DNA of 32,587 nucleotides, taken from contig CAMWTJ010000021.1 of the NCBI GenBank assembly GCA_947177185.1, positions 1 to 32,587 of the forward strand, read 5' to 3'. A program made the position numbers and the translations under genes. Below, piece by piece: positions 7,889 to 12,417 of this stretch. The stretch is from an uncultured Porphyromonadaceae bacterium (lineage in GTDB: Bacteria; Bacteroidota; Bacteroidia; Bacteroidales; Muribaculaceae). A model generated the notes under the pieces. The model did not search any database. It was not told the origin of the DNA and saw only the letters and a program-made list of their open reading frames with translations. Positions within the stretch are counted from its first letter, which is position 1, and every line of letters starts with the position of its first letter.

Positions 7889-10063
7889 TCAATCGATACG
7901 GCGGTATAGCAGATGGTCGTTGTGTTCGCCCACACCCGTCCAGCCGTGATGGTCGGTCGGTTTGCCTATCCATCCTTTGAAATCAGGATAGCCGCGCGTT
8001 ATATTCAGGCGCTCCATGGGCCAGCGCCAGCCTTCGGGCAGCAGAAGCATCTGCGGCGCGCGGAATTCGCCCTCGCTGTTGGCTTCGTGGTCAATCCACA
8101 CCCCCTGGTTCATCTGCGTGGCATCTTCGGGAAGAGTCCAGATATGGAAATCGTGCAGGCTCTCGCTCATCAGCCAGCCTTCGGGCACAGAGCGGCCTAT
8201 CAGCTTCACCTTGCTGAAATCGATATCGGGCGTTCCGTTGCCCACGCCGGCCATCACGCCTCGCTTCACACCCAGCAGGTCGTGGATTTCGCCGAGGGCA
8301 TGCTCGGGCTCGGTGCCGCCGAAGTACACGAAGCTTTCCAGCACGCCGCCGCACGCCAGCGGGCGTATCGTTATCATGTTTTCACCCGAGATATGATTCA
8401 CAGCGAGCACTATATCGTTGAAATCATAGTCGTCGGTGCTGCCGAGGTCCTCGCAGGCCACAATCCACTCTTTCGGCTCAGCCACGGGGAAATCGTCGGG
8501 CGTAAGGTCCGTTTCGGGCGGCCATGTGTTGTGTATGCGGAACACGATGTCGTTGATGTCGTTGTCGCCGCCGCCTTCTTCGAAGCCCACATAGTTGCTG
8601 CCGTCGAAACGATACTTAGCAGCGAATATACTGTAATTGTCGGGCTTCTCGTCCGGGGTAAAGTCATTGCCGCCCATTACATACATGTGATAGTGGAACA
8701 GATAGTAGTTCATGGCCGCGTTGCCGAAGTAGAACTTGTTGCTTCCGCTCACGCTGCCATAGAAGAAGCCTATGCGCGTGCCGGCCGGGAAGGTGTACGA
8801 GCCCTGCTCGCTGTCGCCGTGCTCGCCGAAATACACCAGCCGTATGCGCACGCTGCGGAACTGCGCGGGGCGGAATTGTTTTATCTGCGTGTTTATGGTC
8901 TTGGCGCGCGTGCTTTCAAGGTTCTCCCACTCGCCGAACACATGGTCGCCCTCATGGTTCATGTTCGGATTGTATTTGTCGGGATGCGAGCTCCACTGAT
9001 TGCAGTAGCGGAACTGCATAAGGGCATTGTTTCCGCTAAGACTGTGCTCCGGCTCCACCTCATTGCGGCGGAAAACTACGTATTTCGGAACCTCTTCAAA
9101 AAATTTCTTCGGGTCGGCGTATAACTCGGCCTCGTCTTCGGGAGAATAGTAGTAGTATCCCCAATATGTGTCGCCCTCCATGGTGCGCCACATCAGGTCC
9201 ATGGTCACGTCGCCTTCCTCCCTGACCGTCATGGTCACGTCGGGGTCCAGAATCTGCTCCTTGAAGAAATAGTGCGTCACATTGTCGTCGGAGCCGTATT
9301 CCGACTGGTCAGACTGGTTGCCGAACACACCGCGCTTTTCCTCACCTTCATCATTTATGTAGGTATGCACCACCGGCACTATGTCGAGATTGCTGAACTC
9401 GGGAGTGCGCTGGCTGTAATCGAAATTGTTCAGAGAATACAATCTCGGCACGCTCACCTCAACCTTATTGTCGATGGGGTCCATGCCGTCGTGGCCGATT
9501 ATTTTGTAATACAAATCCTCCCACGTGGTAGTGCCGTCGCCTACGTACGGCTTTATTACATCAAGGTTCCTGTCGGTCACACGCACGGTTTTGTAATCAA
9601 GCGGCGTAGCCGTCACCGGGCAGTCGCCGCCGGCTCGCGAACCATTGTCGGCTATGCGCACTGTGCCATTTTCGGGATACACATATCCGCCGAACACCAC
9701 GGTGCCGTCCGGGCGCTCAACGCGCGCGTAAAGGCTTTTGGTGCCTGTTTCAATGTCGAAACGCATCGACGCGCGGCCGCCGCTCACAGGCACCGCGGCC
9801 AATATCGAACTGCCGGGAGCGTTGGGCGAATCGGTGTAAAACCTGGCTGTGCCGCTGACGGATGGCGCCAGGGCCACCTCAGCCCTGATGGGCTCGGCCA
9901 TGCTCCAGGTGTGGTCCTTGGCCGGCACACCGAATTCTTTTATGAAACCGCGCAGATACAGCTCGTCGGTGGACAGCTGCGGCACCTCGTCGGTACAAGC
10001 AGCCGTAGCGACGGCTATTCCGGCTATCGCAGCCGCACATCTGATACTCTTAAAAATTGTCAT
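7889..10063 (-). CDS. Large surface lipoprotein with LruC/DUF4842-type C-terminal region
   Basis: This 724-residue protein begins with a lipoprotein signal ending in a lipobox TAAC, cysteine 23. The following TDE could act as a Bacteroidetes surface-export signal. The N-terminal third is beta-rich. Near residues 500 and 545 are two acidic motifs, GGGDNDINDIVFRI and DDYDFNDIVLAV, resembling DUF4114 and LruC-domain signatures, which likely bind Ca2+ (family knowledge). Proteins of this type occur as secreted or surface proteins of gut Bacteroidales and have been linked to adhesion or fimbria-like roles, but the role here is not known. Its promoter touches a 10-base C/G tract, a possible phase-variation switch. 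No partner genes adjoin it. Confidence 0.82.
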   Translation of the reverse strand: MTIFKSIRCAAAIAGIAVATAACTDEVPQLSTDELYLRGFIKEFGVPAKDHTWSMAEPIRAEVALAPSVSGTARFYTDSPNAPGSSILAAVPVSGGRASMRFDIETGTKSLYARVERPDGTVVFGGYVYPENGTVRIADNGSRAGGDCPVTATPLDYKTVRVTDRNLDVIKPYVGDGTTTWEDLYYKIIGHDGMDPIDNKVEVSVPRLYSLNNFDYSQRTPEFSNLDIVPVVHTYINDEGEEKRGVFGNQSDQSEYGSDDNVTHYFFKEQILDPDVTMTVREEGDVTMDLMWRTMEGDTYWGYYYYSPEDEAELYADPKKFFEEVPKYVVFRRNEVEPEHSLSGNNALMQFRYCNQWSSHPDKYNPNMNHEGDHVFGEWENLESTRAKTINTQIKQFRPAQFRSVRIRLVYFGEHGDSEQGSYTFPAGTRIGFFYGSVSGSNKFYFGNAAMNYYLFHYHMYVMGGNDFTPDEKPDNYSIFAAKYRFDGSNYVGFEEGGGDNDINDIVFRIHNTWPPETDLTPDDFPVAEPKEWIVACEDLGSTDDYDFNDIVLAVNHISGENMITIRPLACGGVLESFVYFGGTEPEHALGEIHDLLGVKRGVMAGVGNGTPDIDFSKVKLIGRSVPEGWLMSESLHDFHIWTLPEDATQMNQGVWIDHEANSEGEFRAPQMLLLPEGWRWPMERLNITRGYPDFKGWIGKPTDHHGWTGVGEHNDHLLYRRID

Positions 10064-10113
10064 TTTGCTTGTTGGTGTGTAAGTATTAGAACGCTTTCTT
10101 TTGTTTTAACACG

Positions 10114-10132
10114 CAAATATATAGCAAATTTA
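10114..10132 (-). promoter_or_regulatory. Two tandem -7 promoter boxes of the LruC-type lipoprotein gene
   Basis: On the minus strand TAAATTTG (10125-10132) and TATATTTG (10114-10121) both match TAnnTTTG and are 11 bases apart. They lie about 50-70 bases upstream of the start codon. The upstream box directly touches a run of ten G (minus strand). Confidence 0.7.
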
Positions 10133-10142
10133 CCCCCCCCCC
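10133..10142. repeat. Homopolymer tract of ten C (ten G on the lipoprotein promoter strand)
   Basis: Ten consecutive C residues lie immediately upstream of the TAAATTTG box of the lipoprotein promoter, followed by ATTTTTTG. Such tracts are prone to slipped-strand length change (established for phase-variable genes). Here length changes would alter promoter spacing rather than the reading frame. Confidence 0.85.
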
Positions 10143-10241
10143 ATTTTTTGTAACACATCTGACACAAAAGCCGCGTTTTTTTTGATGTTTTCACTATTCA
10201 GACCATAAAATCACTCAAATCGTACACTCCTGTCAGAGCCT

Positions 10242-10288
10242 CCGCATCCTGCGCCTCCGCCTGCCGGCTGCGGAGGCGCAGGACGCGG
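10242..10288. repeat. Large GC-rich hairpin in the divergent spacer 10064-10398
   Basis: TCCTGCGCCTCCGC (10247-10260) pairs perfectly with GCGGAGGCGCAGGA (10270-10283) around a 9-base loop, and the stem continues a further 4 pairs on each side past one mismatch. No T-tract follows on either strand, so a terminator is unlikely. The 335-base gap between the divergent lipoprotein and TPR genes holds this hairpin, the C10 tract, the promoters and no gene I can support. Confidence 0.75.
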
Positions 10289-10379
10289 GCACAGGACCGA
10301 TGCGCGCGCAATTATGCAAACATATGTGAAAGATATGCCGATTTTGCATCTTTTCGGTAGTACGATTGCGATTTTTGCT

Positions 10380-10387
10380 TAACTTTG
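10380..10387 (+). promoter_or_regulatory. -7 promoter box of the TPR gene
   Basis: TAACTTTG matches TAnnTTTG 11 bases upstream of the ATG at 10399, giving a very short leader. This argues against longer N-terminal extensions of the TPR gene. Confidence 0.65.
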
Positions 10388-10398
10388 CAACTGAAACA

Positions 10399-12417
10399 AT
10401 GATCATTTTTTCCCACATACGCAAACGCGCCGCAGCCATGGCTCTGATAGTGGCCACTGCTGCGGCAGCCTCTGCACAGATTAATACCGAACAGGTGATA
10501 CGTGTGGGCCGCAACGCCCTCTATTTCGAGGACTACATGCTATCCATCCAGTATTTCAACCGCGTGATAGATTCGAAACCGTATCTGGCAGAGCCCTACC
10601 TGCTGCGCTCCATCGCCAAATACAATCTTGAAGATTATGCCGGAGCGGAAGCCGATGCCTCGCGCGCCCTCGACCTGAACCCGTTCATAGCCGATGCATG
10701 GGAGGTGCGCGGCGTAGCGCGCCAGAACATGCAGCGCGACGCCGACGCCATCACCGACTACGAAGAAGCGCTGCGCCTGCTCCCGCGCAACCGCAATCTG
10801 CTCTTCAACCTGGCCATGGCTCAGCAGGCTGCCGACCACAAGGCCGACGCCGACTCCACATTCGGCGTTCTGCTGCGATACTATCCCAACTACGACAACG
10901 CCTACCTCGGCCGCGCGCAGCTGCGCCTCGGCGCCAACGACACCACCGGCGCCGCCGCCGACATAGAGCGCGCGCTGGAGCTGAACCCAAACGCACTCAA
11001 CGGCTATATACTCCGCGCCGACATGGCCATGCGGTCGGGCCGCGACCTGAAGGCCGCCCTCGCCGACATAAACGAAGCCGTGAAGCTGCAGCCCAAAATG
11101 GCCGGTCTGTATATCAACCGCGCGTATCTGCGCTACTCTCTCAACGACTATTTCGGAGCAATGGCCGACTACGACTACGCCCTGCAGCTTGAGCCAGCCA
11201 ATGCCACCGCCCTGTTCAACCGCGGCCTTCTGCTTGCGGAAGTGAACGCCAACGACCGCGCGCTCGACGATTTCAGCAGCGTGCTCGACATCGAGCCGGA
11301 CAATTATCGCGCGCTCTACAGCCGGGCCCTGATCCACCGCGCCAAAGGCAACTATCGTGCGGCCATAGCCGACGTAAACCGCGTGGCAGAAGCGTTTCCC
11401 GATTTCCCCGACGCCCTTTGGCTACGGGCCGACATCGAACGCTCCATGGGGCAGACCTCCAGAGCCGAAGCCACCTACAACCGCGCCAAGCAGCTTGCGG
11501 CTGCCGCACGACCCGTCGACGAAAGCGAAGCCACGGCGGCCGTCGCATCAGCCGACGTGCCCGAGGAACTGGTTTCGCGACGATTTGCCTCGCTCCTGAC
11601 CGTCGACGACAACGCCGACATACGCGAGCAGTACAACAACAGCGCCATCCGCGGGCGCGTGCAGGACCGCAATGTGGCCATCGAAATAGAGCCCATGATG
11701 GAGCTCGGCTACTATTCGGCACCGTCGGAGCTGCGCACAAACACATATTACATAAAGGAAATCGACGAACTGAACGCCACGCGTGCGCTCCGCTTCGCGG
11801 TGGTAGTGACCAACCGCCGCCCCACCCTCGACCAGGATATCATACAGCGGCATTTCAGTTCCATCGACTACTACAACTCGCTCATGTCCACGCACACGCC
11901 GCGCGCCGTGGACTACATAGGCCGTGCCCTCGATTTTGTGACCACGCGCAACTATTCTGCTGCCATCGACGACGCCACAAAAGCCATAGAACTGATGCCC
12001 GACTATGCGCCCGCCTACTGGCTGCGCGCTCAGGCACGCTACCACAAACTGCAGGTCGACCGCGACACACCCGACGAAACAGGCAGCATCGACCCCACTG
12101 CCCGCAGGCAGGTGGCGGAAGCGGCCATGACCGAAATACTGGCCGACATAGACCGCGGCATAGAGCTGAGCCCCACCACCGCCGTGGCATGGTACAACAA
12201 AGGCAACCTTATGCTTGAAAACCACGACTACACCTCGGCCATAGCAGCCTACACGCGCGCTATCGAGCTCAAACCCGACATGGGCGAGGCGTACTACAAC
12301 CGCGGATACATCTATCTCAAACTCGGCAACAGACAGGCCGGCATCTCCGACCTCGGCAAAGCCGGAGAAGCAGGCATAGTGCCGGCCTACAACCTCATAA
12401 AACGAATACGCAAATAA
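10399..12417 (+). CDS. Secreted tetratricopeptide-repeat protein
   Basis: This 672-residue protein has a signal peptide (MIIFSHIRKR then a hydrophobic stretch to ASAQ). At least nine TPR units fill the first half, for example LYFEDYMLSIQYFNRVIDSKPYLAEPYLLRS and YRAALIDVN-like units, followed by a less regular segment at about residues 380-510. A second TPR block near the C-terminus includes YNKGNLMLENHDYTSAIAAYTRAIELKP. TPRs are protein-binding scaffolds. The start at 10399 fits the promoter box at 10380-10387. The DUF4301 gene follows after 41 bases, suggesting one operon. The specific partner is unknown. Confidence 0.88.
   Translation: MIIFSHIRKRAAAMALIVATAAAASAQINTEQVIRVGRNALYFEDYMLSIQYFNRVIDSKPYLAEPYLLRSIAKYNLEDYAGAEADASRALDLNPFIADAWEVRGVARQNMQRDADAITDYEEALRLLPRNRNLLFNLAMAQQAADHKADADSTFGVLLRYYPNYDNAYLGRAQLRLGANDTTGAAADIERALELNPNALNGYILRADMAMRSGRDLKAALADINEAVKLQPKMAGLYINRAYLRYSLNDYFGAMADYDYALQLEPANATALFNRGLLLAEVNANDRALDDFSSVLDIEPDNYRALYSRALIHRAKGNYRAAIADVNRVAEAFPDFPDALWLRADIERSMGQTSRAEATYNRAKQLAAAARPVDESEATAAVASADVPEELVSRRFASLLTVDDNADIREQYNNSAIRGRVQDRNVAIEIEPMMELGYYSAPSELRTNTYYIKEIDELNATRALRFAVVVTNRRPTLDQDIIQRHFSSIDYYNSLMSTHTPRAVDYIGRALDFVTTRNYSAAIDDATKAIELMPDYAPAYWLRAQARYHKLQVDRDTPDETGSIDPTARRQVAEAAMTEILADIDRGIELSPTTAVAWYNKGNLMLENHDYTSAIAAYTRAIELKPDMGEAYYNRGYIYLKLGNRQAGISDLGKAGEAGIVPAYNLIKRIRK

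Follow-up and report, generated by a model that had tools for sequence, protein, structure and literature searches.

A promoter element built around a homopolymeric G run, with the form TTAAC-N5-TTAAC-N0..6-G8/9-TA(A/T)ATTT-...-TAnnTTTG, is present in the source genome and in the family Muribaculaceae, and a G10 tract in the 32,587-nucleotide stretch of DNA analyzed here (the window) lies in the promoter region of a predicted surface lipoprotein gene. We posit that this tract is the core of one copy of the element, which extends to some relatives of the family, and that slippage in the run tunes or switches each gene behind it; taken as a whole, we consider this proposal somewhat probable. The poly-G promoter element is apparently undescribed: in the accessible text of the literature covered, which was mainly openly accessible, we found no homopolymer promoter described in Bacteroidetes.

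The Tract, Its Boxes, and Its Gene

Positions 10114 to 10153 of the window read, on the minus strand, TTAC-AAAAAAT-G10-TAAATTTG-CTA-TATATTTG (written out, TGTTACAAAAAAT-GGGGGGGGGG-TAAATTTG-CTA-TATATTTG). The G10 tract occupies positions 10133 to 10142, TAAATTTG follows directly at 10125 to 10132, and TATATTTG lies at 10114 to 10121, 11 bases beyond the tract; the coordinates given for this arrangement in the preliminary description are thus confirmed. A TTAC at 10150 to 10153 precedes TAAATTTG by 17 bases. From the tract, it is 69 bases to the ATG of the gene at 7889 to 10063 (minus strand), which encodes a 724-amino-acid predicted surface lipoprotein. The surface-type lipoprotein proposed as the target is supported. 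Its N terminus is lipobox-like and DUF4114 is matched at 31 bits, above the Pfam cutoff of 27; matches to DUF4842 and to LruC, the latter at the C terminus, fall below the cutoff.

Is the tract simply a chance homopolymer? G or C runs of at least 10 are expected 0.03 times per window under a first-order model, the window holds no second G or C run of at least 7, and the three 8-mers found compare with a shuffle mean of 0.52, a count of 3 being reached in 5 of 100 shuffles. Comparison with a sister species, G033, is more telling. G033 is the closest other genome with a homologue of the lipoprotein (the orthologue is 91% identical), and its intergenic region conserves the stretch TGTTACAAAAA(A/T)T-G-TAAATTTGCTATATATTTGC, including both TAAATTTG and TATATTTG, within otherwise more diverged sequence. 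The run sits at the same place, as G8; tract length differs between these two species. The conserved stretch around it is stronger evidence against chance than the run statistics. The same assembly does contain two artefact-like G52 runs exactly at contig ends, which lends something to the idea of a chance homopolymer or sequencing artefact in intergenic DNA; given the G033 run and a family-wide element for which the reversed control is zero, we regard that idea as highly improbable. An assembly artefact at the window site itself was rejected, the artefact-like runs sitting at contig ends instead. A G-quadruplex inside one tract was also rejected, the Gs being, we presume, too few.

The G52 runs (contig C13, L035:5540-5591; contig C3, L032:4118-4169) are probably read artefacts. 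The break in contig C13 comes about 20 bases short of the TACCTTTG box belonging to a further LruC-type lipoprotein gene, a location at which one would expect a G run.

Within 9950 to 10420, three inverted repeats of at least 10 bases were found, all upstream of the tract and none enclosing it. A homopolymer mechanism would differ from the invertible promoters of the phylum, as the preliminary description had argued. A 19-base inverted repeat with a 9-base loop, at 10242 to 10288 between two divergent genes, is poorly conserved in G033.

Homologues of the lipoprotein were found in 4 of 49 genomes of the genus, the source genome included (E 0.001). Among 15 homologues with a placeable start, six have a G8 to G10 run within 130 bases of it, one has a run 428 bases away, one is truncated where its contig ends, and seven have no G run of at least 7 in the 166 to 450 bases of upstream DNA. 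Given those seven and the distant run, the G run is not tied to this lipoprotein family everywhere. Two homologues, in G156 and G114, have no G run in their upstream DNA (within the same 166 to 450 bases examined across homologues). The first (G156:C82, L263; 45% identical) has a C9 run immediately behind its start codon and is out of frame from there on, although the run may be an assembly error; the second (L264) is intact and lacks a run of this type.

A Recurring Element in Muribaculaceae

The source genome holds ten G or C runs of at least 10, of which two are the G52 runs and two (on C19 and C40) look unrelated. The six remaining runs are all followed, in the G orientation, by a -7-like box, which is an exact TAnnTTTG in four (contigs C11, C13, C16, and C21) and one letter off in the near-identical copies on C45 and C55. 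The latter belong to about 119 bases with a G10 element, duplicated at 97% identity in different contexts (L039:1489-1606 and L040:2934-3052); one of the two copies is near a contig end.

Across the family, the pattern TTAACN{0,9}G8TN{6,36}TANNTTTG matches 110 of 197 genomes, with 254 matches in sum, compared with 0 of 197 for the reversed pattern and 3 of 197 when C8 replaces G8. The -7 box is needed for this specificity: in a scan of the genus, TTAAC-G8-T alone gave 126 matches against 65 for its reversed control and is thus not specific, whereas versions with the box are. In the genus, with the central three positions of a 7-base block open to any base, 54 of 68 matches were pure G, and the reversed control gave 3. 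A stricter pattern matched 7 of 295 genomes of the order, that is, all five from the family itself and 2 of 290 others, both of these belonging to a single additional family represented by four genomes in the sample.

A scan of species genomes yielded at least 120 stretches with the element. Among the matches listed, 77 of 80 loci carry Bacteroidales or higher Bacteroidota labels, including Paramuribaculum intestinale DSM 100749 and Hoylesella timonensis S9-PR14, and the record titles place relatives with the element in ruminants and other hosts. Three of the matches listed are labeled otherwise: L110 (Clostridium), which has its promoter and gene in common with a Paraprevotella locus (88% protein identity); L129 (Nitrospirae), which by eye appears unrelated; and L173 (Staphylococcus). 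A viral origin was considered and rejected: six viral-contig matches to a G7 pattern were found, none with a TA flank after the run. In several cases (G003:C82, G034:C1, G041:C36, G041:C65, and G127:C29), no more than 100 bases separate the element from a contig end, as though assemblies break at it.

Anatomy of the Element and the Place of the Window Copy

In the family element, the homopolymer lies within the promoter, between an upstream site and the -7 box. Two of its features were not part of the query and appeared nonetheless in the 80 loci among the matches listed: TA(A/T)ATTT directly after the run, and a second TTAAC-like box that precedes the queried one by 10 bases. Spacing was measured at 146 family sites among the matches listed (of 254). 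The distance from the run end to the -7 box is 18 to 19 bases in 87 of the 146, which puts the run end at roughly the position of a -33 box, and the distance from TTAAC to the -7 box is 30 to 33 bases in 117. At the 129 of these listed sites with a -7 box 16 to 25 bases from the run, longer spacers before the run tend to go with shorter ones after it, so that the two compensate (rho -0.57); the spacer before the run is weakly related to run length (rho -0.21), and the spacer after it shows no such compensation for run length (rho 0.03).

The window copy follows this plan in part. Against an independent-base background, its downstream flank fits a flank matrix built from the 80 listed loci (p 0.00045), and the 20 bases upstream of the tract do not rise above background (p 0.27). 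The TTAAC repeats are absent, the upstream site is unrecognizable, and the TTAC is at best a decayed half-site. A -7 box 9 to 15 bases after the run, as here, is found at 14 of the 146 listed family sites. With the TTAAC pair absent and the -7 box at this minority distance, the window copy is a partial member. It is not alone in this: at seven other sites in the source genome, p values range from 0.004 to 0.11 for the upstream part and from 0.001 to 0.17 for the downstream part, which makes several of the copies there imperfect.

Which of the two window boxes would serve as the -7 box? The preliminary description took TAAATTTG for it and the TTAC for a weak -33 box, with the tract setting the spacing between them. 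Both boxes are conserved in G033, which agrees with that model, and within the source genome the window is the only site where a TAnnTTTG lies within 3 bases of a G run of at least 7. This single occurrence tells against the model; so does the TAAATTT-like sequence that follows the run in most copies, with a separate -7 box about 19 bases on. We therefore consider it very unlikely. Since TAAATTTG corresponds to the usual 3' flank of the element and the -7 box stands apart from that flank elsewhere, TATATTTG, itself a sigma-ABfr-type TAnnTTTG conserved in G033, is more likely to be the -7 box of the window. Nor is the TTAC supported as a -33 box: the G run of the element occupies about that position, and the upstream boxes that recur are the TTAAC repeats. 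In sigma-ABfr promoters, 19 to 21 bases separate the TTTG near -33 from the -7 box; in the window sequence, no TTTG stands at this distance upstream of either box.

Run Length: Dial, Switch, or Fixed Block?

Run lengths at the 146 sites among the matches listed are G8 (64), G9 (65), G10 (12), and G11 (5), that is, 8 or 9 Gs at 129 sites and never more than 11. Lowering the minimum to four Gs in the genus brought in runs of 6 (2) and of 7 (8), and those shorter still were chance-like. Five tracts in the genus (at sites in G022, G024, G025, and G038) sit in the same frame and are interrupted by an A; in four of the five, this A is the fifth base counted from the 3' end (GGGAGGGG or GGGGAGGGG). 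An uninterrupted run is thus not required in every case.

Lengths were compared between relatives as well: 127 distinct sites, 115 of them with an open reading frame, yielded 11 pairs of orthologues whose proteins share at least 75% identity. Of these pairs, four are G8/G8 at protein divergences of 0 to 12%, so G8 is not very unstable. In the seven pairs with a run longer than 8, three of which stem from one trio of genomes, lengths differ in six (9/10, 10/8, 11/9, 10/9, 10/9, and 9/10) and agree in one (10/10). All three pairs at this identity between the source genome and G033 differ, with the source genome longer each time; a fourth, more distant pair (45%) has 9 in the source genome and 10 in G033. 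These between-species differences fit length-dependent slippage, and they fit drift as well. No second assembly of the same species was found, and the 12 sites present in both collections come from the same assemblies, with contigs of equal length.

The G run could instead be a fixed recognition block, either a substitute for the -33 box or a part of an activator site, with an optimum of 8 to 9 Gs, no phase variation, and length differences that reflect drift. The narrow range of lengths, the G8/G8 pairs, and interrupted forms such as GGGGAGGGG all favor such a block. Two observations, neither of them decisive, speak against it, namely, that the spacer after the run does not compensate run length and that the longer runs so often differ between orthologues. 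We regard a fixed block as possible though doubtful. Under the slippage proposal, run length could act as an expression dial or switch, and phase variation at the tract would be plausible, an expectation tempered by the interrupted tracts and by lengths that stay near 8 to 9.

Genes Behind the Element and a Proposed Mechanism

The genes behind the element are mostly of the secreted or surface type. Among the matches listed, 25 of 80 sites have no clean downstream gene; at the others, N termini that resemble signal peptides by a simple hydrophobicity rule were found in 43 of 55 downstream genes versus 116 of 387 other genes at the same loci, and such an N terminus together with a lipobox was found in 15 of 55 versus 28 of 387. 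Pfam was run on 53 of these 55 listed genes (L137 and L151 were left out) and returned DUF3575 (6), BspA-type LRR (3), and TonB plug, CotH, RHS, and T9SS tail (2 each). One SRP54 gene and one glycosyltransferase gene are also among the 53, so not all downstream genes encode surface proteins.

In total, these observations are consistent with a mechanism in which two TTAAC half-sites, 10 bases apart and 0 to 6 bases upstream of the run, would probably form an activator site, to be followed by 8 to 9 Gs, TA(A/T)ATTT, and a sigma-ABfr-type -7 box mostly 18 to 19 bases after the run. RNA polymerase, probably with the help of the activator, would read the G block, leading to transcription of genes for envelope and secreted proteins. 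Slippage in the homopolymer would alter run length and with it how far the upstream site stands from the -7 box; each gene might thereby be tuned or switched separately. The window, with G10, no TTAAC pair, and a -7 box 11 bases after the tract, would represent a partial copy. What the sequences show directly is the element itself, with its spacing and gene preference, and a run length that changes between species; we infer that an activator takes part, that expression depends on run length, and that switching occurs within a population.

Could the same mechanism operate across a whole genome? We speculate, more tentatively, that surface-protein promoters genome-wide each carry a slippable G run, that a population continuously reshuffles the proteins it displays, and that runs in the coding sequences of some homologues join in, which would amount to contingency by homopolymer within a phylum known for inverting its promoters; this extension falls somewhat short of what we would expect to hold. 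Muribaculaceae are abundant in the mouse gut. If the proposal is true, the family uses, mostly for envelope and secreted proteins, a promoter class absent from the accessible description of the Bacteroides promoter (PMC7366714). Surface variation in Bacteroidales would then arise by slippage as well as by inversion, and the variable part of the promoter could be read directly from existing metagenomes. The element would also offer a searchable motif for finding the regulator.

Comparison with Known Systems

Based on the accessible text of PMC7366714, the sigma-ABfr promoter of Bacteroides fragilis has TAnnTTTG at -7 and TTTG near -33, Bacteroides thetaiotaomicron has a resembling motif with an AT-rich spacer, and in Flavobacterium johnsoniae no -33 motif was found; given this last case, a missing -33 box is not in itself unusual. 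The -7 box of the Muribaculaceae element is identical to that of the sigma-ABfr promoter. Unlike that promoter, the element has a G run with upstream TTAAC repeats and no TTTG near -33, and a G block does not figure in the description of the Bacteroides promoter in the same accessible text.

With the invertible promoters of Bacteroidales, the element would have in common the supposed purpose of switching genes from upstream, as far as the accessible parts of PMC8748976 and PMC10939037 describe them. The mechanism would be different, namely, slippage at a tract that inverted repeats do not bracket.

The nearest known case is the C-stretch of the Bordetella fim genes, as presented in the accessible text of PMC1891110. 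There, fim2, fim3, and fimX combine a C-stretch with a fim box, so that likewise a box and an adjoining homopolymer are common to surface-protein promoters in one genome, and a change from C7 to C8 at fimX accompanies a 3.8-fold lower transcript. Bordetella belongs to another phylum and the sequence is another one; the Muribaculaceae run consists of Gs on the coding strand, varies within narrow lengths, and ends near -33. In contrast to the length effect on transcript in Bordetella, the effect in Muribaculaceae is a proposal made from sequence.
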